Shown: in pieces, positions 12,176 to 57,672 of the stretch
Layout of the letters: each line of letters opens with the position of its first letter
How positions within the stretch are numbered: position 1 is the stretch's first letter
NCBI GenBank assembly: GCA_937129385.1
Contig: CAKZNC010000065.1
Span: forward strand, 1 to 61,012
DNA: 61,012 nucleotides
Origin: an uncultured Bacteroidota bacterium
GTDB lineage: Bacteria > Bacteroidota > Bacteroidia > Bacteroidales > GCA-2748055
Reading direction: 5' to 3'
Notes under the pieces: generated by a model
Database searches by the model: none
Told to the model about the DNA's origin: nothing
Seen by the model: only the letters and a program-made list of their open reading frames with translations
Position numbers and translations under genes: made by a program

Positions 12176-12186
12176 ACACTTGAACC

Positions 12187-13221
12187 ATGAGATTGATCAT
12201 TCCTGATAATTATCAGCCCCTGTTGGGCCTGAAGCAGACAGAGACTGCGATAAAGCTTATGAAAGAACACTTTGAGATCGGGCTCTCGTCCGAGCTCCGC
12301 CTCAGGAGGGTCACAGCGCCACTCTTTGTTCTCAGCTCTACCGGTTTGAACGATAATCTGCGTGGCGTTGAGGAGCCTGTTGAATTCAAGATCAAGGACA
12401 TGCGTAACCAGGATGCGGAGGTGGTGCAGTCACTTGCAAAATGGAAGCGGATGATGCTCCGTGATTATGATATTGAGTTGGGGAACGGGATCTATACTGA
12501 CATGAATGCCCTGCGACCCGATGAAGAGCTGGACAATTTACACAGTGTGTATGTCGACCAGTGGGACTGGGAGCGGGTGATCAGCAAATCGGATAAGAAC
12601 CTGGATTACCTGAAACGAATGGTGCGGCAGATCTATGCAACCATCAGGCGTACCGAGTTCTACCTGTTCAGCCTTTATCCGCAACTTCGTCCGCAGTTGC
12701 CGGAGGAGATTACATTCATACATGCGGAGGAACTGTATGAGATGTTTCCCGATCTGACTCCCAAAGAACGTGAAGACAAAATCTCCGAAAAATACGGGGC
12801 GGTGTTCATCATCGGGATCGGGTCAGAACTGCCCGATGGCAAGCCGCATGACAGGCGGGCGCCGGATTATGATGACTGGACCACGGAAACGACGGACGGG
12901 TACAGGGGGCTCAACGGAGATATTATCGTCTGGAACCCGGTGCTGAAGATCGCTTGCGAATTATCCTCCATGGGGATACGTGTCGATGGAGAGGAGCTGG
13001 AGAGGCAGCTTAAACTGACGGGTGATACAGACCGGCTTGACCTGTTGTTCCACAGGCGACTGATGGATGGTGAGCTTCCACCTGCCATTGGCGGAGGGAT
13101 CGGGCAATCCCGCACAGCGATGGTTTACCTGCAAAAAGCACATATCGGGGAGATACAGTCTGCCATCTGGCCGGGAGAGATGGTGGACCATTGTCGCAAA
13201 TGCGGGATCCGGCTCATGTGA
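12187..13221 (+). CDS. asnA: Aspartate--ammonia ligase (asparagine synthetase A)
   Basis: AsnA makes asparagine from aspartate and ammonium with ATP-to-AMP cleavage, using a class II tRNA-synthetase-like fold. The 344-residue product shows the family segments SSELRLRRVTAPLFV, NDNLRGVE, DQWDWERV and the C-terminal GGGIGQSRTAMVYLQKAHIG. Length is normal. It lies between two fused LeuCD hydro-lyase genes (gaps of 11 and 48 bp), so the three are probably one transcript, which is an unexpected partnership for this enzyme. Confidence 0.96.
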   Translation: MRLIIPDNYQPLLGLKQTETAIKLMKEHFEIGLSSELRLRRVTAPLFVLSSTGLNDNLRGVEEPVEFKIKDMRNQDAEVVQSLAKWKRMMLRDYDIELGNGIYTDMNALRPDEELDNLHSVYVDQWDWERVISKSDKNLDYLKRMVRQIYATIRRTEFYLFSLYPQLRPQLPEEITFIHAEELYEMFPDLTPKEREDKISEKYGAVFIIGIGSELPDGKPHDRRAPDYDDWTTETTDGYRGLNGDIIVWNPVLKIACELSSMGIRVDGEELERQLKLTGDTDRLDLLFHRRLMDGELPPAIGGGIGQSRTAMVYLQKAHIGEIQSAIWPGEMVDHCRKCGIRLM

Positions 13222-13269
13222 TGGCCCGCGGATTTTCCGACTGATTGCTGAATATTCAAAGACCAATCG

Positions 13270-15045
13270 ATGCCTACATTTGCTGAAAAAATATTTGGAG
13301 CTCCTGCGGGTACCATCGTGTTCCGGCAGCCAGACCTGGTACTTACCCACGACAACACGGCGAGTATTGAAAAAACCTTTCAGCGGATGGGAGGTACACA
13401 TGTTGCTGACCCTGACCAGCTGATGGTGGTCCTGGACCACAATGCTCCCCCTACCACCTCCTCTGTTGCCACCAATTATGCCGCCATCCGGGATTTCGTG
13501 GACAGACAGGGGGTACGTAAGTTTTATGATGCCGGGGAGGGGATCTGTCACCAGCTGATGTCCCATCATGCCCGACCCGGAATGCTAATCGTGGGCAGTG
13601 ACAGTCACACCTGCACGGCAGGTGCTTTCAATGCGCTTGCAGCCGGGATTGACCGGACCGAAGCTGCCGGGCTCTGGATGAAGGGGGAGACCTGGTTCCG
13701 GGTCCCTGAGACATTGAAGATCAATCTGCAGGGAGCATTGCGGGATGGGGTTTATGGAAAAGATCTTTCGTTGTGGATCATCGGAATCCTGGGATCGGCC
13801 GGGGCTAATTACATGTCCATTGAGTTTCACGGTGACGGTGTCAGGCACCTGGCAATATCTGAGCGAATGACCCTTGCAAACCTGGCCTCGGAGATGGGCG
13901 CCAAGAATGCGGTATTTCCGGCAGATCAGGTGTTGGAGGAATACCTGGGGGAGTCGGTGCAGGGGATTTGGGCAGATGAAGATGCTGCATATGCACGGGA
14001 GATCACCGTTGACCTGGGAGAAGTATATCCGCTTGTTGCAGCTCCGCACCAGGTAGACAATATTATGGCGGTGGCCGAAGTTGCCGGTGAGCCTGTGGAC
14101 CAGGGAGTGATCGGTACCTGTACCAATGGCAGGATCGAGGATCTGCGCGAGGCTGCGGCAATTCTGAAGGGAAAGAAAGTCGAAAAGGGGTTTCAGTTGC
14201 TGGTGATCCCTGCATCAAAAGCCATTTACCTACAGGCGATCGAAGAGGGGTTGATCACCACCTTCCTGGAGGCAGGTGCCAATGTGCTGAGCTCTTCATG
14301 TGGTCCCTGCCTGGGGACAGGGCAGGGGATACCGGCTGATGGTTCGAGGGTTATTTCAACCGCCAACCGGAATTTTCCCGGGCGTATGGGAAACAAGGAG
14401 GCTGAGATCTACCTGGGATCTCCGGCAGTGGTTGCTTATTCGGCCCTTCAGGGCAAGATCACAGATTCGAGGACTGCCGGTGGGGCCGAAAGTTTTCCAT
14501 TTAAAAGGGAAGTTTCCGGTACGATCTCTATTCCGGAGGATGCGAGCTCACGTCGGCATGGGATAGTTTGGGATTATTCCGATGCAGATCACCTGAATAC
14601 CGACCAGATGTTTGCTGGTCACCTGACATACAAGATACTCAGCTCTGATCCGGAAGGGATAAGGGAGCACCTGTTTGCCGATTTCGATCCCTCCTTTGCG
14701 GGTCGGCTTGAGGCAGGTGATGTCATTTTGGGCGGGGAGAATTTCGGCTGCGGAAGCTCCAGGGAGCACCCGGCAGTCGGACTGGCACATGCGGGAGTGA
14801 AGGCGGTGATCGTGAAATCGGTGAACCGTATTTTCTTCCGCGCATCGATCAACCAGGGATTGCCGCTGATCGTGCTTCCGGAAGCAGTTGAAGCATATGA
14901 AGTTGGAGATCATGTGGGGATTAACCTGGAGAAAGGTGAGGTGAGAGTGGGTGAGCAGACCTTTTCATTTCAACCGTTACCTGGTAAGCTGCTTGAGATT
15001 TTGGAGAAGAGAGGGCTGGTGAACTATCTCGCTGTTGATCTTTGA
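13270..15045 (+). CDS. Fused LeuC-LeuD type hydro-lyase (aconitase superfamily), copy 2
   Basis: The 591-residue product has the same architecture as copy 1 but is far from identical. The catalytic part has VGSDSHTCTAGA, [4Fe-4S] ligands Cys284 (GTCTNGR), Cys344 and Cys347 (SSCGPCLG), and TANRNFPGRMG. The swivel domain has the classical NFGCGSSREHP. This copy is closer to canonical LeuC/homoaconitase proteins (MLIVGSDSHT). The specificity loop reads HLTY (His451), where YLRT or YLVY is usual. No isopropylmalate or homoisocitrate dehydrogenase or synthase gene is nearby. Transcription ends at a strong terminator shared with the convergent TonB receptor gene. Confidence 0.9.
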   Translation: MPTFAEKIFGAPAGTIVFRQPDLVLTHDNTASIEKTFQRMGGTHVADPDQLMVVLDHNAPPTTSSVATNYAAIRDFVDRQGVRKFYDAGEGICHQLMSHHARPGMLIVGSDSHTCTAGAFNALAAGIDRTEAAGLWMKGETWFRVPETLKINLQGALRDGVYGKDLSLWIIGILGSAGANYMSIEFHGDGVRHLAISERMTLANLASEMGAKNAVFPADQVLEEYLGESVQGIWADEDAAYAREITVDLGEVYPLVAAPHQVDNIMAVAEVAGEPVDQGVIGTCTNGRIEDLREAAAILKGKKVEKGFQLLVIPASKAIYLQAIEEGLITTFLEAGANVLSSSCGPCLGTGQGIPADGSRVISTANRNFPGRMGNKEAEIYLGSPAVVAYSALQGKITDSRTAGGAESFPFKREVSGTISIPEDASSRRHGIVWDYSDADHLNTDQMFAGHLTYKILSSDPEGIREHLFADFDPSFAGRLEAGDVILGGENFGCGSSREHPAVGLAHAGVKAVIVKSVNRIFFRASINQGLPLIVLPEAVEAYEVGDHVGINLEKGEVRVGEQTFSFQPLPGKLLEILEKRGLVNYLAVDL

Positions 15046-15080
15046 GCATTTCGTGCCTGATTTTCCGGTATTATACCAAA

Positions 15081-15110
15081 AAAAGAGCCCCGGGGAACCG
15101 GGGCTCTTTG
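15081..15110. terminator. Strong bidirectional terminator
   Basis: A 12-bp perfect stem (15082-15093 with 15098-15109) closes a GGAA tetraloop, with T-runs possible on both strands. It separates the LeuCD/asnA operon from the convergent TonB-dependent receptor. Confidence 0.9.
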
Positions 15111-15170
15111 TGATCATCACCTGGCACAAATTCTTTGTTGCGGAGATTGTGCCTTTATTCAGTATGCAAT

Positions 15171-17870
15171 CTAAAACTTATACGCTACGGTAAAGTTCCA
15201 GGTTCTTCCGTTTCCGAAATAGACCCTGTTGTTCATATCCACACCGTTCCACGTCGGATCGGTTCCGGGGTGTATATTAGTGTCAGACTGACTGATATAC
15301 TGCTTGTTCAGGATATTGTTTACATTACCACGCAACATGATTGAATTGCGGTTCGCGAGGTAGATATTGTAAGTAACACCTGCATCCAGCAGGCTGAAAG
15401 AGGGAAGCTCGAGTGATCCCATGTGGTCCTCAGCGTCGAAGCTTTCCGGATCGATCGCAGCATATAATTTGTCATAGTACCTGAAATCTGCATCAACAGA
15501 CAGACCTTTGATGATTTTGTACTCAGCCAGCAATCCAAAACTTGTTTGTGCTGCATCACCTACCTTAACATCATCAAGATACAGCATGCTGCTTGCTGCT
15601 CCAATGGGCACGCGGTTTTCGTCCCATATGTTGGCCTCGACATTACCTGCGTAGGTCCAGTTGCCGACAGAAGCAAAACCTCCGATACTCAGCGTTCTCA
15701 TGGGCTTGAATTCAAACTCAAGTTCAACACCTGTATGAGTTTCTGCAACGTTCTGGAAAAGTGCAATATCATCAAATTCTCCATCGTTGTCGAAATCTCC
15801 GCTCTGACGGATCTGGCGATCGGTCCAGCTTGTGTAATATGCATTGAGGTCCACATCAAGCATGGGGCTTCGGAATCCGTATCCTGCCTCAAATCCAAGA
15901 ATCTTCTCATTTCCTACGTCTTCATTTACATCGTTCAGGTAATTCAGGAACAGATCGTCAAAGAAGGGCTGACGTGAATAGTACCCAGCGTTTACGAACA
16001 CATTGTGTGCTTCATTGATATTATAGTTACCGCCTGCTTTAAGGTTGTAGCCCGGGTGCTTGAGTTTTTCAGACACCTGGTCGGCCGTGAAGGCATAGGA
16101 ATGATAGTCGAAGCGCTGGAATGACTGTGTTGATAAGGCTCCCTGCATATAACCAGAGAAATCTGCAGTTTTGTATTCAAGCTGTCCGAATACACCTGCG
16201 TATGAGATCCGTTCGTTGTTGTAATAGTCGAGCTTGTCATCAATCATACCGTTTCTTTCTGTCCAGAACAGGTAAGGTGAAGCCTTGTGCTCCTGTGTAT
16301 AGACCTGTCCGCCAGGAAAGAGATCCTGGAATCCGGCACCATTGTAGTTGTCATCCCAGTATCCATCAAGTCCCCAGAGGTTGTCCACCAATCTGAAGTG
16401 CTCGCCGTAATAGGTGCGGAAATCTGCACCAATGTTGAAAGATAGCGATTCACTGATGTCATGGTTGAAGTTGGTCACAGCACCAAGCCACCTGTGCATG
16501 TTCATGGAGGCACGACGGATGCCTGCTCCGTCACCATATGAACCAATCGTCCGGCCCGGGATGTGCCACTGTTCTGTACCATCATTCACGATGGCCTGAT
16601 TATTGGCTTCGATCTGGTCAAAGTCGAGCTGACCATCGGCATCGTAAAGGTAATAACCGGTTCCGTAACCACCGGTACCACCACCCTGTCCGATAGATGC
16701 ATAAAGCACGGTAGAGAGGGATGACTTTGCCCCCATGTTCCAGTCCCAGTTCAGGTTAGCCACAGGTTTGTGGTAGAAATTCTCCCTCAGGGAGTAGACT
16801 TCACCATTATAATATCCCCAGTTATTGTTGTAACGTTGCTCTTCATTTGTGATCTCACCATCACCGTTCCTGTCATAGGTGTCAATGGATTTCGTGTAGT
16901 TCTGGTAATGGTTTTGCGGAGCACCGGTCATGGAAAAGTTGAACTGGTGTTTGTCAGAAGGTTTGTAACCAACAGAAATAAAATAGGTCTGACCCTGTCC
17001 CTGGGTACCGTCATTGTATCCATTTCCCTGCCAGTGAGAGAGGAGGACGCTGGCACCCCATCCATTTTCGCTGAGTCCGGTGGAGTAGCTGGCCACATAT
17101 TTCATGTACCCGTCGTTTCCAACCAGGGCGCTGACACGACCTCCTTCGATCATATCGGTAGCTTTGGTGATCACGTTGATCGTGGCGCCCACAGAGGAGA
17201 TGGCGAGCTTTGATGAGCCGAGTCCTCGCTGGATTTGAACTGCGGTAGCGATTTCTGCGAGTCCCTGCCAGTTTGACCAGTATACCTTTCCATCTTCCAT
17301 TCCGTTCACCGGCTGTCCATTGAACAGGAGTGCAAGGTTTTCCTGTGAGAATCCACGTATATTGATCCGGGAGTCACCGTATCCACCTGCCTGACTGGCG
17401 ACATATACGGAAGGAGTATTCTTCATGATTTCCGGGAATTCCTGGTTACCGGTCTTTTCGATGATTTCCGGCATGTGAATGGTGGATACTGCCACAGGTG
17501 TTTCCCTGTCCTGGGCAACGTCGATCACGCCATAACCTACCACGACCACTTCATCGATCTCGAGGCTCGGGGAGAGTCCGATCTCACCCAGGTTTTTCCT
17601 GGATGCAGTGAATGAGGCTGTTGTAGAGGTATATCCGATGAATGAGACCTTCACGGAACCTGAAGTACTTGAAACCTCGAGGCTGAAACTTCCATCAGCC
17701 ATGGTAATGGTTCCATTTGCGGTCCCGGTCTCAACTACGTTGGCCCCGGGAAGAGGATCGCCGGTATCTTCGTCCACAACCGTTCCACTGATTGTGGTCT
17801 GGGCATGTGCATTGATTGCAAAGACACAAGCCACCAGCATAGTGAGGCTAAATTTTAATACATGTTTCAT
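15171..17870 (-). CDS. TonB-dependent outer-membrane receptor with CarboxypepD_reg domain
   Basis: From ATG 17870 the 899-residue product has a Sec signal peptide ending in NAHAQ, a carboxypeptidase-regulatory-like domain (TISGTVVDEDTGDPLPGANV) at about 25-110, a plug domain (VVVVGYG, INIRGFSQENLALLFNGQPVNG) and a beta-barrel ending in WNFTVAYKF. It imports an unknown ligand across the outer membrane using TonB energy. The N-terminal order resembles SusC-like transporters, but there is no SusD partner on either side. It is transcribed alone from a -7 box at 17928-17935. An in-frame start at 17930 would lie in the promoter. Confidence 0.92.
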   Translation of the reverse strand: MKHVLKFSLTMLVACVFAINAHAQTTISGTVVDEDTGDPLPGANVVETGTANGTITMADGSFSLEVSSTSGSVKVSFIGYTSTTASFTASRKNLGEIGLSPSLEIDEVVVVGYGVIDVAQDRETPVAVSTIHMPEIIEKTGNQEFPEIMKNTPSVYVASQAGGYGDSRINIRGFSQENLALLFNGQPVNGMEDGKVYWSNWQGLAEIATAVQIQRGLGSSKLAISSVGATINVITKATDMIEGGRVSALVGNDGYMKYVASYSTGLSENGWGASVLLSHWQGNGYNDGTQGQGQTYFISVGYKPSDKHQFNFSMTGAPQNHYQNYTKSIDTYDRNGDGEITNEEQRYNNNWGYYNGEVYSLRENFYHKPVANLNWDWNMGAKSSLSTVLYASIGQGGGTGGYGTGYYLYDADGQLDFDQIEANNQAIVNDGTEQWHIPGRTIGSYGDGAGIRRASMNMHRWLGAVTNFNHDISESLSFNIGADFRTYYGEHFRLVDNLWGLDGYWDDNYNGAGFQDLFPGGQVYTQEHKASPYLFWTERNGMIDDKLDYYNNERISYAGVFGQLEYKTADFSGYMQGALSTQSFQRFDYHSYAFTADQVSEKLKHPGYNLKAGGNYNINEAHNVFVNAGYYSRQPFFDDLFLNYLNDVNEDVGNEKILGFEAGYGFRSPMLDVDLNAYYTSWTDRQIRQSGDFDNDGEFDDIALFQNVAETHTGVELEFEFKPMRTLSIGGFASVGNWTYAGNVEANIWDENRVPIGAASSMLYLDDVKVGDAAQTSFGLLAEYKIIKGLSVDADFRYYDKLYAAIDPESFDAEDHMGSLELPSFSLLDAGVTYNIYLANRNSIMLRGNVNNILNKQYISQSDTNIHPGTDPTWNGVDMNNRVYFGNGRTWNFTVAYKF

Positions 17871-17927
17871 AGAATTAATTTTTAGAGTTAGAATTATAAT
17901 TTGCTTTCCTGAGTTATATTTCCCGGA

Positions 17928-17935
17928 CAAAGATA
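17928..17935 (-). promoter_or_regulatory. -7 box TATCTTTG for the TonB-dependent receptor
   Basis: Exact TAnnTTTG match on the minus strand, predicting a leader of about 50 nt before the ATG at 17870. Confidence 0.65.
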
Positions 17936-18455
17936 TTCCTGAAGGGAATTGATGAAATGAAATTAAGTTTAATTTATTGTTAGGAGTTGTTTTTGCATCC
18001 AGAAAGTTTCAACACGCAATTAACAATGGAGGTGAGCTAAAGAATGATTACTGGATGAAGTTTGAATAGCCTAGGAGGGAAGGGGTTGATAGTCAATAAT
18101 TAGGAGTTCTGACCAGTCGTTGTGAACTGGTGTGATTTCTTTCGGAGATATGTTATACAATATACTTTTCCTCCTATTCCATGCCTTCATTCAAATATTC
18201 TTACCTGAAGAAGCGTAAACCGGAATCACTACAGGCAAGTTTAAGAGATTCGGATTCTGGGTAATATGGTTTGAATCAGCCTGTATTTTATAAAAAAAAT
18301 AATGGGATTATCAGCTAAGACACAGGAACTTTACAGGCTTTCACTTGCAAGTAAAAAAGTGACGAAAGGCAAAAATAAATTGACAAACAAATGTTAAAGA
18401 TTGATAAAAGGATAACAATTAACATTTGAGACCGTAATAAATGTAAAATGATATC
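17936..18455. other. AT-rich intergenic region without a recognised gene
   Basis: About 520 bp between divergent genes. I see no open frame worth calling, no RNA gene and no repeat. It should hold the upstream regulatory sites of the TonB receptor and the T9SS cargo gene. Confidence 0.6.
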
Positions 18456-18463
18456 TATTTTTG
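18456..18463 (+). promoter_or_regulatory. -7 box TATTTTTG for the T9SS cargo gene
   Basis: Exact TAnnTTTG match that ends 30 bp before ATG 18494 and overlaps an upstream in-frame TTG, so it fixes the start at 18494. Confidence 0.6.
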
Positions 18464-18493
18464 CCATTGAAGAAAAGCCAAAAAATTACAATT

Positions 18494-19726
18494 ATGAATC
18501 GTATACAATTTACCTGTCTCATATTATGTATAACTACAATTCCGGGTTACAATCAGTTGGCACCCAATAACAGGGTTTTAATGCATGAAAATCCTGATGA
18601 ACGCGTTGCTGGAATCAACAATGATCTGCCAACTGGTTTTTCCGAAACCCTTGATTCAGTCATCCATTTTGAATATGTGGAAGGGAATCCTGAACCAAAT
18701 ATTAGCAAGTGGATCTATTTCTCAGAAGTATTGGAACGATTAGATTCTGTCGAACAATTCTATCTGGATCAAATATTGGATTATACCTCTGGTCAAACTG
18801 TCAGGTACAATTATGATGAATACGGTCGGATCTCCAATGTTTTCAAAAACAGTTGGAACAGCAGGATGGAGCATCTGGCCATACTTATAAATGAGGAGTA
18901 TCAATACAAGACCGGTGAAGATTTTACGAGAATTTCGAACATCGAATGGAGGACTTTACATGATACCTCCATTGTTGATTTTGAGGAGGATTACGAATTT
19001 GATGTGTCTGATCAACTGGTAGATTATAGCATGACCATACCTTTTGATATAAATCCTGATACTGCCCATTACCAGGAGGAGTACAATTATGACACCAATG
19101 GTTTACTTGCAAATGCGAGCAGCAATCTGACGGAAGCAGGAGAAAGTGTTCGACTACTGGAGATGCAGTATCAAAATGTATTTAACACCTTCGATTTACC
19201 CTCCAATATCCGGCAGACCAGCAGGTTGAACAGTGTGGGTGGCTGGTTGAATGATGGAGAGATAGCTCTGTTCTATGATGGCCAGAACAGGATCACGGTT
19301 CAAACTCGTGCAAGGGCAGTTGATACAATATTCCCTCTATATGAGCGGCTTAACTATACCTATGACCAATATGATAATCTGATCAGTGAAGTCAGATATA
19401 CATCACCTGATTCAATCAATTTTCAGATGGCCGACAGTATATTGTATTACCATACCGTGGAGGAAGAGGAAGAGGAAGAGGTTGATCCTGAAACACCTGA
19501 ATTCATTCTTTATCCCAATCCTACAAATGGAATACTACACATCAGGTCAGGTATTGATAGCCCGTCAGAAATCAAGGTTATTGATGTATTAGGGAAAATA
19601 CATGTAACAATGAATGTTGAAAGTGGTGTGGCAGATATTGATCTTTCGGCTTTCCCTACCGGTTATTATCTGATTGTCCTGACCAGTAATTCTGAATATC
19701 ATACAGGGAAGGTACTCAAATACTGA
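18494..19726 (+). CDS. Secreted protein with C-terminal T9SS type A sorting domain
   Basis: The 410-residue product starts with a Sec signal peptide. The middle part is beta-rich, with repeated Y-D/N-x-x-G-like strands (RYNDEYGRIS-like and YDTNGLL stretches) as in YD-type or RHS-like sheets, but no catalytic motif is visible. An acidic Glu-rich linker precedes the final 75 residues, which start with FILYPNPTNGILHI and end HTGKVLKY: the T9SS type A sorting domain. The protein should be exported and attached to or released from the surface. Its role is unknown. It stands alone between two non-coding stretches. Confidence 0.85.
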   Translation: MNRIQFTCLILCITTIPGYNQLAPNNRVLMHENPDERVAGINNDLPTGFSETLDSVIHFEYVEGNPEPNISKWIYFSEVLERLDSVEQFYLDQILDYTSGQTVRYNYDEYGRISNVFKNSWNSRMEHLAILINEEYQYKTGEDFTRISNIEWRTLHDTSIVDFEEDYEFDVSDQLVDYSMTIPFDINPDTAHYQEEYNYDTNGLLANASSNLTEAGESVRLLEMQYQNVFNTFDLPSNIRQTSRLNSVGGWLNDGEIALFYDGQNRITVQTRARAVDTIFPLYERLNYTYDQYDNLISEVRYTSPDSINFQMADSILYYHTVEEEEEEEVDPETPEFILYPNPTNGILHIRSGIDSPSEIKVIDVLGKIHVTMNVESGVADIDLSAFPTGYYLIVLTSNSEYHTGKVLKY

Positions 19727-20797: not shown

Positions 20798-20805
20798 GAG
20801 GAGGG
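20798..20805 (+). promoter_or_regulatory. Strong Shine-Dalgarno GAGGAGGG
   Basis: An 8-base purine match to the 16S rRNA tail with 8 bp to ATG 20814. Such strong sites are uncommon in Bacteroidota and fix this start. Confidence 0.6.
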
Positions 20806-20813
20806 ATTGCGTC

Positions 20814-22430
20814 ATGAAAAAAGCGACTGAATTAAAGCAGAATAACAGGGCTGCCATGGTTATGCTCACCATTTTGAGAGTTGGGATCGGGTGGCATTTT
20901 ATATACGAAGGATTTTCAAAATTGCTGGAACCTGGCTGGACCTCTGCAGGCTATCTGCTTAGTGCAACGGGCCCTTTTTCGGGGATTTTTCATTCAATGG
21001 CGGCAAACGAGACGCTTCTGCAGTTCATTGATGTGCTGAACATCTGGGCGCTGATATTCATCGGGATCGGACTTTTTCTCGGATTGTTCACTAAAATATC
21101 ACAGGTGGCAGGAATCGCGCTGCTTACTGTATATTACCTTTCTCATCCTCCATTCTTCTCTGAACCTGGATTCTTTCGTGAGGGATCCTATCTGCTGGTA
21201 AGTAAAGACCTGCTGGAGATCATTGCACTCGTTACATTGATGTTCTTTCCCACCGGGAAGTTTATCGGACTCGATGGATTGCTTACACTTACATTGCGGA
21301 AATCTTCACACAAGATGGACCATGGTCAGCCCGACGAAGAAGAACACAAGGCCGATGTGGGCAGGATCGAGCGGAGGGAAGTTCTGAAACACCTGGCCAC
21401 TGTCCCTTTCATGGGCGCCCTTGCATATGGGATCATCCGCAAGACAGGGATGGATAGCTTCGAGGAGCAAAACCTGGTGGATGCGAATGCAGGAGCAACT
21501 CAACGTTTTGTGCAGCAGATCCAGGCGGGATCCAACCAGCTTTCCCTGGATAATCTGAAAGGACAAAAATTTGACGAGATCAATGGGGTGAAAGGTAAAC
21601 TACCTAAGGGGATGCTGGGCGGACTTGAATCATCGAAGCTGATCATGGGAGGAAACCTGATCAGTGGATATGTGCACTCACGAGACCTGATCTACGTCTC
21701 TTCTCTTGTAAGGAATTACCACCAGAAGGACCGTGTATTTAAAACACTGATGATGTGTGAGCAGGCCGGTGTAAATACATTGCTGTCGAATCCTGTGGTA
21801 ATGCCATTGATGGAAGAATACTGGAAAGAGGGATATGGCAATATACAATTCATATCCGACTGTGCAGGTTTGATCTACTGGCCCGAACTAAAACCAATGC
21901 CGTTCGAGGAGTATTACGATATCGTAAAAGGAGCCATTGACAGTGGGGCAAATGCCGGGTATATCCAGGGAGAGACAGCCGATTACTATATTGAGAACGG
22001 GGAGGTTGATAAGATCGTGAAGGTGATGGACCTCCTGAGAGACAATGGACTTCCGGTTGGTATCGGGGCCCACAAGATCCAGACAATTAAAAAATGCGTG
22101 GAGCTTGGCCTTGAAACAGATTTCTGGATGAAGACATTGCACACCCATGATTACTGGTCGGCCAAACATCCGACATGGCACGATAACATGTACTGTTTCG
22201 ATCCTGACGACACCATCAACTACATGGAGTCGCTCGAGCAACCCTGGATCGCTTTCAAAACCATGGCAGCAGGAGCTGTACACCCGGAAAAGGCTTTTCC
22301 CTATGCATTTGAGAAGGGAGCCGATTTTGTATGCGCCGGCATGTACGATTTCCAGGTGGTCGATGATGTGAATATTGCCCTCGCAGCCATTGATAATGCA
22401 GGTAAACGTCAGCGTCCCTGGCGGGCATAA
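20814..22430 (+). CDS. DoxX membrane domain fused to a TIM-barrel-like domain
   Basis: The 538-residue product has three parts. Residues 15-160 form a four-helix DoxX-type membrane domain (LRVGIGWHFIYEGFSKLL, IGLFLGLFTKIS, LEIIALVTLMFFPTG). Residues 187-210 are a twin-arginine-like segment (RREVLKHLATVPF) running into a hydrophobic stretch. Residues 255-538 are a soluble alpha/beta domain resembling aldo/keto-reductase-like barrels (LIMGGNLISGYVHSRD, AGVNTLLSN, PWIAFKTMAAGAVHP, GADFVCAGM). The barrel probably lies outside the inner membrane, tethered to DoxX. The reaction is unknown. A homologous DoxX domain occurs as a separate gene at 54556, next to an oxidoreductase with the same RR segment. 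Confidence 0.8.
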   Translation: MKKATELKQNNRAAMVMLTILRVGIGWHFIYEGFSKLLEPGWTSAGYLLSATGPFSGIFHSMAANETLLQFIDVLNIWALIFIGIGLFLGLFTKISQVAGIALLTVYYLSHPPFFSEPGFFREGSYLLVSKDLLEIIALVTLMFFPTGKFIGLDGLLTLTLRKSSHKMDHGQPDEEEHKADVGRIERREVLKHLATVPFMGALAYGIIRKTGMDSFEEQNLVDANAGATQRFVQQIQAGSNQLSLDNLKGQKFDEINGVKGKLPKGMLGGLESSKLIMGGNLISGYVHSRDLIYVSSLVRNYHQKDRVFKTLMMCEQAGVNTLLSNPVVMPLMEEYWKEGYGNIQFISDCAGLIYWPELKPMPFEEYYDIVKGAIDSGANAGYIQGETADYYIENGEVDKIVKVMDLLRDNGLPVGIGAHKIQTIKKCVELGLETDFWMKTLHTHDYWSAKHPTWHDNMYCFDPDDTINYMESLEQPWIAFKTMAAGAVHPEKAFPYAFEKGADFVCAGMYDFQVVDDVNIALAAIDNAGKRQRPWRA

Positions 22431-22447
22431 AATCATAATTTGCATAC

Positions 22448-22939
22448 ATGAATATTAAATTTCACTCTTCAGTAATTTTCTGCAGTGACCTGGAAAAACA
22501 GCGGGAATTCTATGAGAAATTCCTGGGTCAGAAAGTTGAACAGGATCTCGGAAGATGCATTGTTTTTGAAGGTGGTCTTACATTGTGGAAGCCTGATAAG
22601 GAGTATCCACTGGCAAAAGAACTGGGATATACCTATGAGCCCATCGGCAACAGGAACCTGGAGATTTGTTTTGAGACAGAAGATTTTGCAGATGCCGTGG
22701 AAAATGTCCTGATGGGAGATTTGCGGCTGCTGCATAATGTCGTTGAAGAGTCCTGGGGCCAGTATACCATCCGTTTCTACGATCCGGAAGGCAACCTGCT
22801 TGAGATCGGGGAAAACCTGAAATGCATGGCCCTGCGAATGCGTAATTCAGGAATGGATGCCGACCAGATCGCAGGCAAAACGGGACTTGACAAAGGGTAC
22901 GTTGAACACCTGCTTACCCAACCGGGTGAGTGTGAATGA
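22448..22939 (+). CDS. VOC-family (glyoxalase-like) protein with helix-turn-helix-like tail
   Basis: The first 125 residues form a vicinal-oxygen-chelate domain (VIFCSDLEKQREFYEKFLG, then FYDPEGNLLEIGE, the usual metal-ligand Glu region). The last 35 residues (about 127-157, MRNSGMDADQIAGKTGLDKGYVEHLL) read like a short helix-turn-helix. The two parts together are unusual. Metal-dependent isomerase, lyase or ligand sensor are all possible. It follows the DoxX-fusion gene by 17 bp and precedes the alcohol dehydrogenase, so it is probably in the same transcript. Confidence 0.75.
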   Translation: MNIKFHSSVIFCSDLEKQREFYEKFLGQKVEQDLGRCIVFEGGLTLWKPDKEYPLAKELGYTYEPIGNRNLEICFETEDFADAVENVLMGDLRLLHNVVEESWGQYTIRFYDPEGNLLEIGENLKCMALRMRNSGMDADQIAGKTGLDKGYVEHLLTQPGECE

Positions 22940-22975
22940 TGCTTCATTTTTTTAACTTTATTGAAAATTCTACCT

Positions 22976-24163
22976 ATGATATCCTCTTTTCAATTTTCAT
23001 CCTTGCCAAGGATTGTATTTGGACCTGGGAAAAGGGCCAAATTACCTGAAGAAGCGAAGTTGTTCGGAAACAAGGCATTGCTGGTGACCGGCACCACTGC
23101 CATTCACAATTCCGGTCATGGCGATGAGATCAAAAAGTCCCTGACAGACAACGGGATCTCAATTCAGCATGAATCCATCGGCACCGAGCCCTCGCCAAAA
23201 ATGGTGGATGAGATCACCGAAAAATACAAGGGGAGAGGCATCAAGGTGGTGATCGCCGTCGGGGGAGGAAGCGTAATGGATGCCGGAAAAGCAATTTCGG
23301 CCATGTTGGTGGTTGAATACGGGGTGAAACACTATCTCGAAGGGGTGGGGGATATGGAACATCCCGGTGTGAAAATACCCTTTATTGCCATGCCAACCAC
23401 TTCAGGTACAGGTAGCGAGATGACAAAAAATGCTGTATTGTCTGAAGTCGGGAAGGATGGATTTAAAAAGTCTTTGCGACACGACAATTTTATTCCCAAC
23501 CTCGCCCTTATCGATCCGGAAATGATGCTTACCTGTCCGCCCAGGCTTACTGCAACGAGTGGTATGGATGCATTTACCCAACTGCTGGAATCCTACCTCA
23601 GCAAGCAAGCCAACCCGATGACAGATGCGTTGGCGCTGCATGGGATCAAGCTTGTGAAACGTAACCTTTTGAGGGCATTCCTGGAAGGGGAGAACAACCT
23701 TGAGGCACGCTCAGGCATGGCGCTTGCAGCCATGTTCTCGGGGATCACCCTTGCACATGCCGGACTGGGACTGGTGCATGGATTTGCATCTCCATTTGGT
23801 GCACACCTCAAAATTCCCCATGGTGAAGTTTGCGGAACACTCATGTCCACCGTAAATGCAATGACCATCGACGAGATCATCGATGACAGGAAAAGTGCGG
23901 CATTTGGCAAGTATTTGATCGTAAGTAAGATATTTTCCGATTTTAAATACAAGGAGGACCGGGAATACTTGCTGGCCTTCAAGGATAAGCTGGAGCATAT
24001 CTCCAATGTCCTGGAGATTCCACCGCTTGATCCCGAAGCTTTTTCAGATGAGGTGATACAGAAAATCGTCGCAGAAACCTCCCACAAACACCACCCGGTC
24101 ACCTTCGGGGAGGAGAAACTGGAGCTGATCATTCGCAAGCGACTGGCCAGGAAAATATCTTAA
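22976..24163 (+). CDS. Iron-containing alcohol dehydrogenase
   Basis: The 395-residue product belongs to the group III (Fe-ADH) family of NAD(P)-dependent alcohol or aldehyde reductases. It has the Rossmann-like GGGSVMDAGKAIS cofactor motif, the FIAMPTTSGTGSEMT segment, and the metal-binding His residues in LAHAGLGLVHGFASP and KIPHGEVCG. The start is ATG 22976; an upstream TTG at 22961 is less likely. The substrate is unknown. It is the last gene of the DoxX-fusion/VOC group. Confidence 0.93.
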   Translation: MISSFQFSSLPRIVFGPGKRAKLPEEAKLFGNKALLVTGTTAIHNSGHGDEIKKSLTDNGISIQHESIGTEPSPKMVDEITEKYKGRGIKVVIAVGGGSVMDAGKAISAMLVVEYGVKHYLEGVGDMEHPGVKIPFIAMPTTSGTGSEMTKNAVLSEVGKDGFKKSLRHDNFIPNLALIDPEMMLTCPPRLTATSGMDAFTQLLESYLSKQANPMTDALALHGIKLVKRNLLRAFLEGENNLEARSGMALAAMFSGITLAHAGLGLVHGFASPFGAHLKIPHGEVCGTLMSTVNAMTIDEIIDDRKSAAFGKYLIVSKIFSDFKYKEDREYLLAFKDKLEHISNVLEIPPLDPEAFSDEVIQKIVAETSHKHHPVTFGEEKLELIIRKRLARKIS

Positions 24164-50728: not shown

Positions 50729-51469
50729 ATGAAAAAATATCTTGTATCGGTCGCATGCCTGGTAACCGCGATCACAGTCGGCGCACAGGAAGAAATCACC
50801 GATCCGAAAGCCACTGAAAAATGGAGCCCTGTTCCCGTTGTTGTGACCCCGGGAGAGCAAAATGCACCACCCTCCGACGCCATTGTGCTGCTCGGGGAAG
50901 GAGAGGACCTATCCATGTGGGAATCTGCCGATGGCGGCGATGTGAAATGGGACATCAATGACGGTGTACTCACGGTAAAGAAGAAGACCGGTGCAATCGT
51001 TACCCGGAACTATTTTGGGGATTGCCAGCTGCATGTCGAATGGAGATCCCCGGCACAAGTCAAGGGCGATGGCCAGGGCAGGGGAAACAGTGGTGTCTTC
51101 CTGATGACGAAGTATGAGGTCCAGGTGCTGGATAGCTATAACAACCGTACCTATTCAAACGGACAGGCGGCTTCCATATACAAGCAACATATTCCGCTGG
51201 TGAATGCCTGCCGTCCTCCAGGCGAGTGGCAAACCTATGACATCATCTGGAAAGCCCCGGTATTTTGTGAGGATGGCGAGGTGAAAGAGCCGGCCTTTAT
51301 CACCGTAATTCACAATGGTGTGCTTGTTCAAAACCACGTGGAGATAAAGGGTACCACGGATTTTATTGGTATACAGACCTACAAACCCCATGCTGAAAGA
51401 CTTCCGATACTGTTGCAGGATCACAACAACCCGGTAAGTTACAGGAATATCTGGATCAGGGAGTTATAG
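50729..51469 (+). CDS. DUF1080 (3-keto-disaccharide hydrolase family) protein
   Basis: The 246-residue product has a cleavable signal (ITVGAQ) and a DUF1080 domain: IVLLGEGEDLSMWESADG, DCQLHVEWRSP, NSGVFLM, YEVQVLDSYNN, EWQTYDIIW, LPILLQDHNNPVSYRNIWIREL. It is a more typical DUF1080 than the copy at 41930, without lipid anchor. Activity on 3-keto sugars is possible but not shown. Confidence 0.9.
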   Translation: MKKYLVSVACLVTAITVGAQEEITDPKATEKWSPVPVVVTPGEQNAPPSDAIVLLGEGEDLSMWESADGGDVKWDINDGVLTVKKKTGAIVTRNYFGDCQLHVEWRSPAQVKGDGQGRGNSGVFLMTKYEVQVLDSYNNRTYSNGQAASIYKQHIPLVNACRPPGEWQTYDIIWKAPVFCEDGEVKEPAFITVIHNGVLVQNHVEIKGTTDFIGIQTYKPHAERLPILLQDHNNPVSYRNIWIREL

Positions 51470-52936: not shown

Positions 52937-54526
52937 TCAGGAAATCTCCTCTTTTTCACCGTCCCAGGTCACCTTCCTGTTTTCCTTGTAAGCAATTGTT
53001 GCCATGGCTGAAGTAATGCCTTCCTCAAATGCCTCATCAATATTGCAGCTCGGCTGACTGTTTTCCCGGATGGCCTGGATCCACTCGGCAACATGGAGGT
53101 GCGTGGTGTCGACTCTTTTACCACCTCGGTAGGTATACAGTAGCCCCCTGCCTGCAAAATACTTCTCCGTGGCGGTGGCAACGGCATCCACATCTTTTCT
53201 GCCCGGAATATACGAGTAGATCGGAGTGTTGGGATCTATCAGTCCGCTTTGAATTTTGTCTTTGTACCTGGTGCTTTCACGATCGGCATAAACGCTCAGG
53301 TTATTTCCCAGCTCCATGTAACCGTCATGGCCCATGATCACTTTTCCCCTGTTGCGGTTGCTTGCAAGTGTGGCACTGTACAGCAATGAAAAATTCTTCT
53401 TCGGGTATTCAAATACAGCATTCCACACATCGGGCACTTCCCGGACCTCATTTACATAATGATCTGGTTTTTCATAGTAATAAACCCCGCCCGATGACAT
53501 GGCTGTCTCCGGGATTCCCATTCTTACGATCTGGTTCACCGCATCGTATTCATGGGTAAGCAGATCACCCGATAAACCGGTCCCATAGTCCCACCAGCAC
53601 CTCCACCTGAAAAACCGCTCAGGGCTGAAAGGGTGTTTCTCTTCACAGGGCTCCTCGAATGTTTTCCAGTCGATGGTCTCCTCGGTTCCACGCTCATCAA
53701 TGTTGTATACCCAGGCGCCATTGGTAGAATTACGGTTTGTACATACTTCGATGAGATTGATATCTCCCAACAGGTTTTTCTCGATCGCTTCGGCGGCCTT
53801 GATATAGCTCTCCGTTTGTCTTCCCTGGTGCCCCAGCTGAAACGTAATTCCGGCCTTTTTCACTTCATCCCTGATGGCATACACCTCTTCAAGGGTCCTC
53901 GTAAGTCCCTTCTCCACGTAGACATGCTTGCCGGCACGTGCTGCATCGATGGCAATTTTTGTATGCCAGTGATCCGGGGTCCCGATGATGACTGCGTCTA
54001 TGTCATCGGCCTGCAGAAGGTCCCTGTAGTCCCTGTATCTTTTGGCAGGTGTGCCATAGCTTCCATTGGCCCCTTCACGTCCCGTATTGGACGATGCCAG
54101 CAGTGCACGCTCGGCCCTGACATCGAACAGGTCACAGATGCCATTGACGACAACATTGAGGTCGTCCTGCTCCATATAATCGTTGTATCTTCGATCTGTG
54201 CTGTTCTCGGCAGCGGAGTCTTTCCATGACTGGATCACATCTGGGTGTGCAAATCCGGCTCCCCTGAGCAGGTGCTCTCCTCTTCCGCCATAGCCTATGA
54301 TGCCCAGCCTGAGAGGTTCTCCGTCCCATACTTTCTTCGCTTCGCCGGGCGCGACGCTGCTCATATTCAATTCCTGGCTTAGCTTGTGACTCCTGTAGTG
54401 GTCCAGCTGCTTCTTGCGCCAGATACCGAATGCAAATGCACCCACCACCGGCACAGTGGCCATTCCTTTCAGTAAATCTCTCCTGTTTATCTCTTTTTTA
54501 TTCTTATTCTCCTGGTTGTTTTCCAT
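52937..54526 (-). CDS. Gfo/Idh/MocA-family oxidoreductase with RR-type signal
   Basis: The 529-residue product begins with a twin-arginine-like segment (RRDLLKGMATVPVVGAFAFG, RR at 15-16), then a Rossmann fold starting RLGIIGYGGRGEHLL, the EKG-type motif HVYVEKGLTRT, and the Gfo/Idh/MocA C-terminal domain. It is probably a periplasmic NAD(P)-dependent sugar or inositol dehydrogenase. The segment aligns with the RR linker of the DoxX fusion at 20814. A DoxX gene lies 29 bp upstream on the same strand. Confidence 0.9.
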   Translation of the reverse strand: MENNQENKNKKEINRRDLLKGMATVPVVGAFAFGIWRKKQLDHYRSHKLSQELNMSSVAPGEAKKVWDGEPLRLGIIGYGGRGEHLLRGAGFAHPDVIQSWKDSAAENSTDRRYNDYMEQDDLNVVVNGICDLFDVRAERALLASSNTGREGANGSYGTPAKRYRDYRDLLQADDIDAVIIGTPDHWHTKIAIDAARAGKHVYVEKGLTRTLEEVYAIRDEVKKAGITFQLGHQGRQTESYIKAAEAIEKNLLGDINLIEVCTNRNSTNGAWVYNIDERGTEETIDWKTFEEPCEEKHPFSPERFFRWRCWWDYGTGLSGDLLTHEYDAVNQIVRMGIPETAMSSGGVYYYEKPDHYVNEVREVPDVWNAVFEYPKKNFSLLYSATLASNRNRGKVIMGHDGYMELGNNLSVYADRESTRYKDKIQSGLIDPNTPIYSYIPGRKDVDAVATATEKYFAGRGLLYTYRGGKRVDTTHLHVAEWIQAIRENSQPSCNIDEAFEEGITSAMATIAYKENRKVTWDGEKEEIS

Positions 54527-54555
54527 GCGCTTAGAATTTTATCATTTCCTGGTTG

Positions 54556-55050
54556 CTAACTGGCTTCACGTTTCCCAAAAATCAACCTGTCGAGTCCGAC
54601 GATCCTTCCTGTTGGGAACAGCATCAGCACTACCAGCGTGATCATTTCGATCAGGTTTTTATTGACCAGCATGTAATTTCCTTCTGAGGGTATCGCGTAG
54701 GTCACATTGATCAGGGCAGGGTGGGAGAGGTAATAGAGTCCCAGCAATGCGATCCCGCCGATGTAGGAGATGCGTGTAAACAGACCCAAAATCAATCCTA
54801 GGCCGATCAGGATCAATCCCCAGATATTCAGGAAATCTGCGATCTGCAATACGTCAGGATTTCCGGCGATTGACCTGAAGATCCCGGCAAACCATCCCTT
54901 GGAATCCATCAGGTATCCAACCGATGACCAGTTGGGATTCAGTAATTTGATCATTCCTTCATAGAGCAGGTGCCATCCGATGGCTACCCGTAAAATCACC
55001 AGTGCCCATAACTGTGCCCTGCTATAACCCTTTTCCATTGTATCGTACAT
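54556..55050 (-). CDS. DoxX-family membrane protein
   Basis: The 164-residue product has four hydrophobic helices and the DoxX stretches LRVAIGWHLLYEGMIKLLNP, IGLGLILGLFTRIS and ITLVVLMLFPTG. About half of the residues match the DoxX domain of the fusion at 20814. DoxX proteins often pair with oxidoreductases. It is in the same transcript as the Gfo/Idh/MocA gene. An alternative start is ATG 55038. Confidence 0.9.
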   Translation of the reverse strand: MYDTMEKGYSRAQLWALVILRVAIGWHLLYEGMIKLLNPNWSSVGYLMDSKGWFAGIFRSIAGNPDVLQIADFLNIWGLILIGLGLILGLFTRISYIGGIALLGLYYLSHPALINVTYAIPSEGNYMLVNKNLIEMITLVVLMLFPTGRIVGLDRLIFGKREAS

Positions 55051-55115
55051 TTGATTTGAAAATTCGAAAACGAAGTCCTAAAGTTAGAAAAAATGTGAAA
55101 AACCCTGCCCCCGAC

Positions 55116-57551
55116 TCACCTTAATTTGAATTTTGAACCCAGGGGATCCAGTTTGATCTTCTGTTTTCCGGGAACAATATCTATGGTTTGATGGTCCCAG
55201 ACAAAGATCCCGTCCAGACCCGGAGGAAGGGTAACCGTTCCTTTCACAGCACCGTTTTTTCCAAAAGTGAGGTCCACGGTGATCATCCCTTTTGGGTGTG
55301 GCATCCCGGCGTCAATGAATCCAAGTCCCCCCGGATGCGGTTCAATGATCAACTTCCCAAAACCCGGGGCTGCGGGCATGATCCCAGCCACCGTTGCCAG
55401 TAATTCGTATAAGGGGCTGGCACTCCAGGCATGGCAATCTGACCTTGTACGCTCAGTATCTGGAATCTCCGCAAAGGTGGTCAGCCCGGAACCGAGCATC
55501 CTGCGCCACGGTTGGAGCATGGATAAATATTTGTGTCCCAGCCCCGCTTCAATTGCAGCCCGGTTTACATAATACCTGAAATACAGAGATGCCTGGATCA
55601 ATGCAGGATCCCTCATCACCTCCTCCATGAAGATGGCCTGGTCTTCCTTTTTGATGGCCCCGGCGAGGAGGGCAAAAGTGTTGGCATGCTGACTGTAGGA
55701 GTTCATCCCGGGGGTGTCGGCAAAAAGCTTCCTGGCTTCATCCCAGCAATGTTCCCTGGTTGATTCAATGAGCTCGCCTGCAAGGGTGCGGTAATCTGCA
55801 GCCAGCTTCTCCAATCCGAATATGTCGAAGAGCTCAGCAGCCTGGTTCAGTGTCATCGCATATTGAAAAGTGATGATCGATGATTGTCCCTCCTGTCCGC
55901 CCGGTGGAACCCCGCCGATCCGTTTTTCATTGTCCCATGGCCACTCCTCTGTCCAGTCAACAAATGGCCAGTATTCGATCCCTCCTAGCATCCCCGTCTC
56001 CGGGTCGATCCTGTTCTCAAACCACTGGAGTACATGCTGAATATTGACCAGGTACTGCGCGGCAAATGCATAGTCGTTCCTGTGCCATATGTAATCAGAG
56101 ATCATCGAAATCCAGAACAGCGAATAGGTGGGGATCACCTGGCGGGGTTCGGTAGGGTACCTGCTCTGCGTCAGCCCCTCAGGTATGATGGAATGGTAAT
56201 AGTCGGTAATCGCCTTCTTCATAAGCCGGTCATCCCCGTCCACATATAGGGAGATCAATGCCTGTATCCGTGTATCACCCACATATTGCATCTGCTCATA
56301 ATAGGGACAGTCATAATACAATTCATTGGCACATAACCTGGCCGTACGCCATCCAACCTCCCAGATCGGGGCCACCTGTGGATCATCAGAATGAAACCAG
56401 CCCTTTTCCCTGAAAGGATAGGCGGTGAAAAGCGGTTCGAAAGATTCAATGATCAATGGATCCGATTTCGTCTCTATTTCAAGGAGTATATACCGGAAGG
56501 TCCTAAACCACAAAGTATTGTACGTTCTGCTCTTCCCGCCGTCACTGATGATCAGATCCGAATTCCCAACGAAATGCATTCCTGCAACAGAGTCACGATG
56601 CGGTTTTCGGCCCTTATCATCAAACAGCGATTCGGCATAGCTGATCCTGATCTTTGCATCGCGGCCTCCAGATATCTTCAAATGTGGGTAAGCGGTGACC
56701 AGCTCCTCCTGATCCAGCAAAATTTGTGTTTTGGTATTTGCCGGCACAGGTGTTATGCTGAATGGTACGTCGGCTGCTTCGTCGATGATCTCCTGGTCTT
56801 GTTTCCTGACAACCGGTGGGTTGATCTCGCGGAGTTCCATCGCAGGAATTGTCCTGGGCACAAGGGCATGGGTAATATCTGTCCCCACTCCTTTGGACGC
56901 TCCGGGGAATTTGGTTTCCGGAGCACTCCAGCCGGAATCATCAAAAGCAACTGTTTTCCATCCCCAGGGATAGGACCTGCCATCCACACGGTCACCGGGT
57001 CCGACAATAATAAATGTTCCAAGGTCGGCCTGGCTGACTTCCACAGGCTGGATGGCATCCAGCGCACGACATTTCCAGGTCCCGGGTGTGTTTAGCTGGG
57101 ACGACAATGATCCGCTTCCCTGGACGATGAATGCGGAAAATAGTGAGAGCTGGGCCCAGGGTTTGTACGGACCGAAATTCCAGACTTCTGCTGCGATGAC
57201 ATTCTCGCCTTCATGCAGAAATTCCGATAGATCATATGTTTCATAGTTCCAATGGTCGGGATCGCTCCTGGCTGGTCCCAGGCCGGTGAGTTTACCATTG
57301 ATATACAATTTGTAACGGTTATCTGCCGAAACATGGACAATGAATTCTCCCGGAACCTGGTCGATTGAAATCTTGTTCCTGTACAGGTACACTCCATAGC
57401 CATATTCAGGTGATCCGGGGACACTGATCCAGCTGGCATCCCAGTGGTCCGTTGCCAGTTTGCCGGGGAGGTCGGGGTTGACAACCAATTGTGCCTCTGA
57501 CCTGGGCAGCAGGAAGGTGAGCAATACGATGAACAGGATCTGTTTTTTCAT
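55116..57551 (-). CDS. GH78 alpha-L-rhamnosidase-like glycosidase
   Basis: From ATG 57551 the 811-residue product has a signal peptide (RSEAQ), N-terminal beta-sandwich modules (ASWISVPGSPEYGYGVYLYR, FIVHVSADNRYKLYINGK) and an (alpha/alpha)6 barrel with YYDCPYYEQMQYVGDTR and the downstream SDCHAWSASPLYELLATVAG typical of family 78. It would cleave terminal alpha-L-rhamnose from plant or algal glycans in the periplasm. The general acid is probably the Glu in the CPYYEQ block. It follows DoxX on the same strand with a 65-bp gap; co-transcription is uncertain. Confidence 0.9.
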   Translation of the reverse strand: MKKQILFIVLLTFLLPRSEAQLVVNPDLPGKLATDHWDASWISVPGSPEYGYGVYLYRNKISIDQVPGEFIVHVSADNRYKLYINGKLTGLGPARSDPDHWNYETYDLSEFLHEGENVIAAEVWNFGPYKPWAQLSLFSAFIVQGSGSLSSQLNTPGTWKCRALDAIQPVEVSQADLGTFIIVGPGDRVDGRSYPWGWKTVAFDDSGWSAPETKFPGASKGVGTDITHALVPRTIPAMELREINPPVVRKQDQEIIDEAADVPFSITPVPANTKTQILLDQEELVTAYPHLKISGGRDAKIRISYAESLFDDKGRKPHRDSVAGMHFVGNSDLIISDGGKSRTYNTLWFRTFRYILLEIETKSDPLIIESFEPLFTAYPFREKGWFHSDDPQVAPIWEVGWRTARLCANELYYDCPYYEQMQYVGDTRIQALISLYVDGDDRLMKKAITDYYHSIIPEGLTQSRYPTEPRQVIPTYSLFWISMISDYIWHRNDYAFAAQYLVNIQHVLQWFENRIDPETGMLGGIEYWPFVDWTEEWPWDNEKRIGGVPPGGQEGQSSIITFQYAMTLNQAAELFDIFGLEKLAADYRTLAGELIESTREHCWDEARKLFADTPGMNSYSQHANTFALLAGAIKKEDQAIFMEEVMRDPALIQASLYFRYYVNRAAIEAGLGHKYLSMLQPWRRMLGSGLTTFAEIPDTERTRSDCHAWSASPLYELLATVAGIMPAAPGFGKLIIEPHPGGLGFIDAGMPHPKGMITVDLTFGKNGAVKGTVTLPPGLDGIFVWDHQTIDIVPGKQKIKLDPLGSKFKLR

Positions 57552-57672
57552 GATCTGTGATTTTGACTTGTGAAGATAACGCATCTGGTGCAGATGAAAA
57601 TATATGTCTGGAAAAATTTAGGATGTTTTAACGATTGAGGTTGGTTCGTCCGGCTTCTTTTTCTATCAAAAG

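Follow-up and report, generated by a model that had tools for sequence, protein, structure and literature searches.

The fusion locus

The window, i.e. the whole stretch of 61,012 nucleotides analysed here, from an uncultured Bacteroidota bacterium, carries two DoxX genes with the motif GWHxxYEGxxK, one fused to a predicted barrel, the other adjoining a Gfo/Idh/MocA gene. Their features are reported, together with the neighboring genes, in Table 1, where column "Basis" indicates the source of each assignment. The fused gene encodes, in this order, a DoxX membrane domain, a twin-arginine hydrophobic linker and a soluble barrel, as had been described from the sequence alone in an earlier annotation (the sequence-only reading): the membrane domain is recognized by PF07681 (31.4 bits, against a cut-off of 23.6; E 3e-07), the arginines are residues 187 and 188, the hydrophobic segment is a predicted helix at residues 197-211, and the barrel is found in the predicted structure. 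No other Pfam domain scores above cut-off on this ORF, and the DoxD models of both Pfam and NCBIfam stay below theirs. The split DoxX-Gfo pair (52937-55050) had not been spotted in the earlier reading. Promoter and terminator scans gave scores not above those of shuffled sequence, and a search of a plasmid collection returned no match.

Table 1. Features of the window around the DoxX-barrel fusion and the split DoxX-Gfo/Idh/MocA pair
Feature	Position	Strand	Basis
GGAGGG, ribosome-binding-site-like; 8 nt to ATG	20800..20805	+	read from sequence
DoxX-RR-barrel fusion ORF, 538 aa	20814..22430	+	ATG start, uninterrupted reading frame
DoxX domain, residues 18-106; TM1 with GWHxxYEGxxK (residues 26-36)	20865..21131	+	Pfam PF07681
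Twin arginine, residues 187-188, invariant	21372..21377	+	aligned relatives
Fifth helix, residues 197-211; P198, G201 conserved; R209/K210 at helix end	21402..21446	+	prediction, alignment
Predicted AKR-fold barrel, residues 215-538, own invariant active-site-side residues	21456..22427	+	predicted structure, alignment
Glyoxalase/VOC-fold protein, 17 nt downstream of fusion, co-oriented	22448..22939	+	Pfam
Iron-containing alcohol dehydrogenase family protein, co-oriented	22961..24163	+	Pfam
3-keto-disaccharide hydrolase	50729-51469		
Gfo/Idh/MocA protein, leader with RR and matching helix RRDLLKGMATVPVVGAFAFGIWRKK, next gene downstream of standalone DoxX	52937..54526	-	
Standalone GWHxxYEGxxK DoxX, 56% identical to fused DoxX	54556..55050	-	sequence comparison
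Alpha-L-rhamnosidase (GH78 domains), adjoins split DoxX-Gfo pair	55116..57584	-	
DUF362 protein, secretion-system C-terminal sorting domain, N-terminal hydrophobic stretches	57730-59715	-	

The fusion is a real gene. A second full-length copy, lacking internal stops, lies on contig C21 of the same genome (40% identity over residues 12-536); relatives of the barrel were found in 24 of the 61 genomes searched, own genome included, and a single scan of the GTDB representatives yielded 51 loci, distributed among Bacteroidota, KSB1, Acidobacteriota, Planctomycetota and Calditrichota. Searches in other genomes, as suggested in the sequence-only reading, brought the number of distinct DoxX-barrel fusions to 72, from several phyla. 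A frameshift or assembly artefact, which would have undone that reading, is ruled out by the second copy, by the relatives in other genomes and by the retention of both arginines in them; nor was the barrel found to belong to a characterized family (see below).

The twin-arginine linker and the fifth helix

Among 66 aligned rows, both R187 and R188 are kept in all 63 that cover the site, never as KR, RK or KK; P198 and G201 are conserved in 97% each. In the fused rows the pair is present in 59 of 59, and the 15 residues from RR+19 to RR+33, past the helix, include at least two K/R in 58 of them and at least one in all 59. An insertion score, computed as a simple sum over a scale, is positive for the fifth helix in 59 of 59 fused rows. 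Since TM1 and TM4 (59 of 59) and TM3 (58 of 59) are positive on the same scale, this hydrophobicity criterion discriminates poorly; TM5 is the least hydrophobic of the five helices in just 24 of the 59 rows. Three relatives from Planctomycetota (L071, L079 and L080, the last two from one genome) contain no DoxX in the ORF; their RR is part of a leader at the N-terminus. TatC is encoded in the own genome (E 7.1e-64), and in 23 of the 24 genomes with the barrel (the exception, G019, is 80% complete) as in 33 of the 37 without it: being near-universal in both groups, its presence does not discriminate.

Five-helix proteins with RR before the last helix have been shown by experiment to be inserted by Sec and then by Tat (Tooke et al. 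2017, PMC5449189). The hallmarks given there are the RR, a last helix of low hydrophobicity and, following it, positive charges, the latter being a Sec-avoidance feature; two such families were tested, each of which is also found elsewhere as a pair of separate genes. Neither DoxX nor Gfo appears in the main text of that founding paper (PMC5449189).

Tethering of an exported barrel to the membrane, as supposed in the sequence-only reading, is well supported at the level of sequence by the invariant RR, the positive charges after TM5 and the RR leaders of the standalone relatives. Alternatively, the RR might act as a positive-inside topology signal only, fifth helix and barrel being exported unfolded by Sec, which also uses hydrophobic helices after positive charges; the hydrophobicity of TM5, overlapping that of TM1 and TM4, is compatible with this. 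Yet the exactness of the RR in 63 of 63 rows, the Sec-avoidance charges in 58 of 59 (PMC5449189) and the RR in the leaders of the standalone forms make this alternative improbable. A cytoplasmic barrel, with DoxX as a passive anchor or the remnant of a chance fusion, is highly improbable: the fusion is kept in 72 distinct proteins from several phyla, standalone forms have RR leaders, and an RR followed by a fifth helix, after the four of DoxX, would put the C-terminus across the membrane.

Fold of the barrel

The barrel, modelled by AlphaFold2 from an alignment of 47 barrels, is predicted to be eight-stranded and to span residues 215-538 approximately (mean pLDDT 86.1, pTM 0.87). Residues 1-16 and 74-82 of the barrel construct are poorly predicted; the latter contain the invariant H288/R290/D291/Y294 loop, whose placement is accordingly of low confidence. 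In a Foldseek search the first match is the putative aldo-keto reductase PA4992 (E 1.8e-07, TM 0.58 on the query, 14% identity), and L-galactose dehydrogenases rank after it. PA4992 ranks first also for the full-length model (pLDDT 81.6, pTM 0.60). Orotidine-phosphate decarboxylases, a ribulose-phosphate epimerase and the aldolase 1mzh (E 1.1e-4) follow with weaker E values than the aldo-keto reductases (AKRs).

The best 1000 Foldseek chains were realigned by VIA-align. The best match is 4exb (Z 20.3, rmsd 3.0 over 235 residues), and the best 50 rows have Z of 16.4-20.3 and rmsd of 3.0-3.8, with 215-245 residues aligned. All rows in this set with a title naming a family are AKRs; the few titled just oxidoreductase or dehydrogenase are presumably AKRs as well. 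The decarboxylases, the epimerase and the aldolase are not among these 50 rows, which excludes none of them. The AKR-like landmarks noticed from the sequence alone are thus found again in the predicted fold of residues 215-538.

At the sequence level the barrel has no significant match in Pfam, NCBIfam or PDB sequences: no curated family in the first two describes it, in line with the sequence-only reading. The AKR family PF00248 is matched by one of the 47 barrel members, at E 0.24, and by none above cut-off. When the barrel profile was aligned by HHalign to a reference profile built from 28 AKRs found in genomes belonging to the same order, the alignment was collinear but weak (probability 27% and P 7e-4 in local mode, 24% and 1.7e-4 in global mode). 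The residues of the D/Y/K/H catalytic tetrad, each present in 28 of the 28 reference AKRs, are aligned in it to L324, V329, C350 and Q385 (posteriors 0.76, 0.54, 0.38 and 0.20, respectively), so that the placements of Lys and His are uncertain. That no catalytic tetrad could be named in the barrel agrees with its absence from the positions aligned here, within the limits of this weak alignment. With regard to NAD(P)(H) binding, as in AKRs, the strand-8 region bears a partial resemblance, judged by eye only.

Isolated matches were obtained to BKACE (E 0.00057, in just one of the 47 members) and to an IMP dehydrogenase model (best E 0.011, in 16 of 47). Both look like a motif shared by barrel ends.

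Considering the structure matches, the weak profile alignment and the single PF00248 match at E 0.24, the barrel is, as far as the models tell, an AKR fold that is not a member of PF00248 and does not retain the AKR tetrad.

Invariant residues and the nature of the reaction

Eighteen polar or aromatic positions are invariant in the 47 barrels (full-protein numbering): N281, H288, R290, D291, Y294, E316, D390, H420, D436, K440, H443, Y447, W448, S449, K482, D512, Q514 and N520; many Gly, Pro and hydrophobic positions are invariant likewise. By DSSP of the predicted model, H420, K440/H443, K482 and D512 lie at or directly past the ends of strands 5, 6, 7 and 8, respectively. The active sites of TIM barrels lie at such strand ends. 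The AKR tetrad would be replaced by a set consisting of H288, R290, D291, Y294, E316, H420, K440, H443, K482, D512 and Q514. Hydride transfer as in AKRs is unlikely in a barrel that lacks the tetrad.

The same residues can be read against a redox enzyme. Invariant lysines in strand 6 (K440) and just after strand 7 (K482) fit lyase chemistry too, in a placement that we take to resemble the lysine pair of deoxyribose-phosphate aldolase; none of the four tetrad residues is kept, on the weak profile alignment, and the aldolase 1mzh is present lower in the Foldseek list. The barrel might thus be a non-redox sugar lyase of the Schiff-base type, a dehydratase or an isomerase built on an AKR scaffold, in the same topology, with DoxX as a mere anchor. 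We consider this unlikely: the best 50 VIA-align rows are AKRs, the sister partner of the same DoxX subfamily is a protein of the Gfo/Idh/MocA oxidoreductase family, DoxD, the relative of known function, is described as a redox partner, and a bound cofactor would be suggested by Tat export, should this be real. The barrel is by analogy probably redox-active, a preference that comes mainly from the company it keeps, i.e. DoxX and the Gfo/Idh/MocA sister system.

The DoxX subfamily and its partners

The leader of the Gfo/Idh/MocA protein in the window, RRDLLKGMATVPVVGAFAFGIWRKK, matches the linker of the fusion, RREVLKHLATVPFMGALAYGIIRKT. A second DoxX-Gfo pair of the own genome is found on contig C126. 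Among the family genomes, 37 of the 39 Gfo relatives that reach the N-terminus have a co-oriented DoxX gene no more than 700 nt upstream; of the two others, one starts 49 nt from a contig end, and one (G004:C58) has an RR leader and a non-DoxX gene upstream.

Possession of such a partner goes along with the motif GWHxxYEGxxK. Thirty DoxX loci were compared: the motif is present in 15 and absent in 15. Nine of the motif-bearing genes are beside Gfo, four are fused and two are cut by a contig end, so that all 13 determinable ones are partnered; none of the 13 determinable genes lacking the motif has a Tat-type RR gene on the downstream side, the only one covered by this check. One motif-negative protein, L113, has an RR, judged by eye not to be Tat-like.

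A larger set was collected with the profile of the subfamily: of 131 distinct DoxX, 72 are fused, 50 lie beside Gfo/Idh/MocA (on either side), five are at a contig edge and four are partnerless. As many of these came from barrel or Gfo searches, the count was repeated on the 92 obtained by DoxX queries alone, from the thirty loci above and every match in the two genome sets below: 53 fused, 30 beside Gfo, five at an edge and four partnerless, that is 83 partnered out of 87 determinable. In 25 genomes chosen for holding the barrel, a DoxX search gave 60 partnered out of 64. The least biased sample consists of 247 genomes of the phylum, seven of which contain a match: all ten distinct DoxX are partnered, and the six from other genomes lie, without exception, beside Gfo. 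The four called partnerless by the script rule are L225, where the upstream ORF is Gfo-like by eye, L277, which overlaps a Gfo ORF, and L233 and L281, where no Gfo-like partner was recognized by eye.

The linker itself is shared by the two kinds of partner. Of 50 Gfo leaders 49 show the pattern RR..P(+11)..G(+14), as do 69 of the 72 fused linkers, against none of 11 other Tat-like leaders from the same loci, a small control with one RR per protein; when only the first RR is considered, the figures are 47 of 50 and 55 of 71. On a tree built from 72 fused and 48 split DoxX domains (120 in all), the fused or split state needs 3 changes, compared with 37.8 after shuffling.

As judged from these sequence comparisons, the GWHxxYEGxxK subfamily of DoxX almost always goes with a twin-arginine enzyme, either the fused barrel or an adjoining Gfo/Idh/MocA protein; what is established is that one DoxX subfamily, with a single type of RR helix, accompanies two folds that are unrelated to each other and each belong to an oxidoreductase superfamily. 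The literature searched contains no report of DoxX together with a Tat signal and fusion, and its publications naming DoxX with MocA or with aldo-keto reductase are unrelated by title.

Some variants were seen among the relatives. The order is reversed, with an RR-leader Gfo/Idh/MocA gene upstream of DoxX, at L213, L215, L216 and L235 (genomes G315, G321, G316 and G311, to which KSB1 and unclassified bacterial loci had led). Planctomycete members of the same DoxX subfamily (L233, L234, L277) feature an insert of roughly 150-200 residues after the first helix, probably periplasmic. Other long proteins with a DoxX domain, of c. 455-600 aa, occur in several family genomes (L118, 1459-2919 on the + strand; also L104, L111, L112 and L113), lacking both the GWH motif and a Tat-type RR.

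Neighboring genes

The VOC and iron-containing alcohol dehydrogenase genes that follow the fusion are found 3' of it also in its nearest relative, L036; at the three further loci scanned (L037, L038, L039) the neighbors are other genes. The VOC protein (22448-22939) shows a weak, below-cut-off match to a helix-turn-helix at its C-terminus. Around the split pair, rhamnosidase, DoxX and RR-leader Gfo lie in a row (52937-57584, minus strand), and the same order is found, by coordinates, in G001, G002, G003, G006 and G008; no GH78 beside the DoxX-Gfo pairs of other genomes is among the matches listed. The operon of the barrel in the window consists of VOC and alcohol dehydrogenase genes, with no rhamnosidase, and points to no particular substrate; no adjoining glycan gene was recognized by eye at the C21 paralogue. 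At locus L120, the second DoxX-barrel fusion is directly followed, in convergent orientation, by a gene for a 2360-residue protein made of many similar repeats (11898-18980, minus strand).

Neighbors were surveyed at 46 loci by mechanically picking the two nearest ORFs of at least 140 aa per side, 150 ORFs in all, analysed in two batches of 75. Sulfatases account for nine of the 150 (three in the first batch, six in the second). The GH78 catalytic domain was found in five of the first 75 and is absent from the 25 families listed in the second batch, where GH106 rhamnosidases (3 of 75) and 3-keto-disaccharide hydrolases (2 of 75) occur. A count of 3 of 75 is attained by unrelated families too, PolyA_pol, histidine kinases and response regulators among them. 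GH78 amounts to about 23 matches per Mb of neighbor coding sequence, compared with about 1.6 per Mb (163 matches) in 28 family genomes; this enrichment is a lead only, since many of the loci are close relatives and the background was drawn from genomes of one family.

A periplasmic role in the hydrolysis of 3-keto-glycosides has been proposed for the 3-keto-disaccharide hydrolase family (PMC9007349). On the analogy offered by neighbors of this kind (GH78, other rhamnosidases, sulfatases, 3-keto-disaccharide hydrolases), the substrate class is likely to be a sugar or glycoside.

Proposed mechanism and significance

The reading we prefer is that of a Tat-exported, DoxX-docked periplasmic enzyme of AKR fold with a rebuilt active site, feeding quinone and acting on a sugar substrate; we assign it a probability of roughly 0.45. 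The four DoxX helices would be inserted by Sec, and the barrel would fold in the cytoplasm, probably around a cofactor. The folded domain would then be exported by Tat by means of the invariant RR and the fifth helix; the latter would stay as a membrane anchor and pack on DoxX, leaving the barrel in the periplasm. DoxX may serve as a dock for the barrel and as an electron path into the quinone pool. This last step is suggested by analogy with DoxD: DoxD/DoxA is reported to oxidize thiosulfate with caldariellaquinone as acceptor (PMC8551704). The same DoxX subfamily would serve the Tat-exported Gfo/Idh/MocA dehydrogenases as a separate subunit.

It is very probable that the fusions constitute a new family of membrane enzymes, built by Sec and Tat and equipped with an AKR-fold domain. 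The dual Sec/Tat membrane proteins, few of which are listed so far, would thereby gain a probable family. The second exported partner of the subfamily hints at a shared docking system, perhaps for sugar-oxidizing enzymes; its extension to a general dock and quinone reductase for interchangeable Tat-exported sugar-oxidizing enzymes, split or fused, is a tentative and rather doubtful proposal. If true, such enzymes would constitute a new class of sugar dehydrogenases, respiratory and periplasmic.

Of the DoxX proteins, a common group, few have been given a role. A single DoxX motif that tracks the possession of a Tat-type enzyme partner, in a membrane module fused to one enzyme fold and encoded separately from another, unrelated one, provides a handle on DoxX function. 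The barrel, in turn, would represent an AKR-fold enzyme with a strictly conserved putative active site, found mostly in uncultured bacteria and often beside glycan-degrading genes.

Comparison with known systems

A close parallel in architecture is offered by the dual Sec/Tat five-helix proteins, i.e. the Sco3746-type MsrQ-MsrP-like fusions and the NapH-NapG-like polyferredoxins (PMC5449189). They likewise have four Sec helices, an RR directly before the fifth helix with positive charges after it, an extracytoplasmic C-terminal domain, and split gene pairs as counterparts elsewhere. They differ in content, being predicted heme/Moco and Fe-S proteins, whereas the fusion reported here joins DoxX to a predicted AKR fold.

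With AKRs (PA4992, 4exb/4exa; L-galactose dehydrogenase, 7smi) the predicted barrel has in common the fold and a hairpin before the barrel, at 7-16% identity over the structural alignments (13% for PA4992, 14% for 7smi). Unlike them, it does not retain the tetrad, is membrane-bound according to the predicted topology, and is probably exported.

The DoxX/DoxD family includes the thiosulfate:quinone oxidoreductase DoxDA, where a membrane subunit is likewise paired with an oxidoreductase; the fusion differs in that DoxX is fused and carries GWHxxYEGxxK, and no sulfur-oxidation gene was noticed adjoining it. In Mycobacterium tuberculosis, DoxX is the membrane partner of the redox enzymes SodA and SseA; these are other enzymes than those found here, and we know of no fusion or RR helix in that system. 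Related, too, are the DoxX and Gfo/Idh/MocA pairs of the same genomes, which have the same DoxX subfamily and a matching RR-helix segment, and differ from the fusion in being separate genes, with Gfo/Idh/MocA in place of the barrel.
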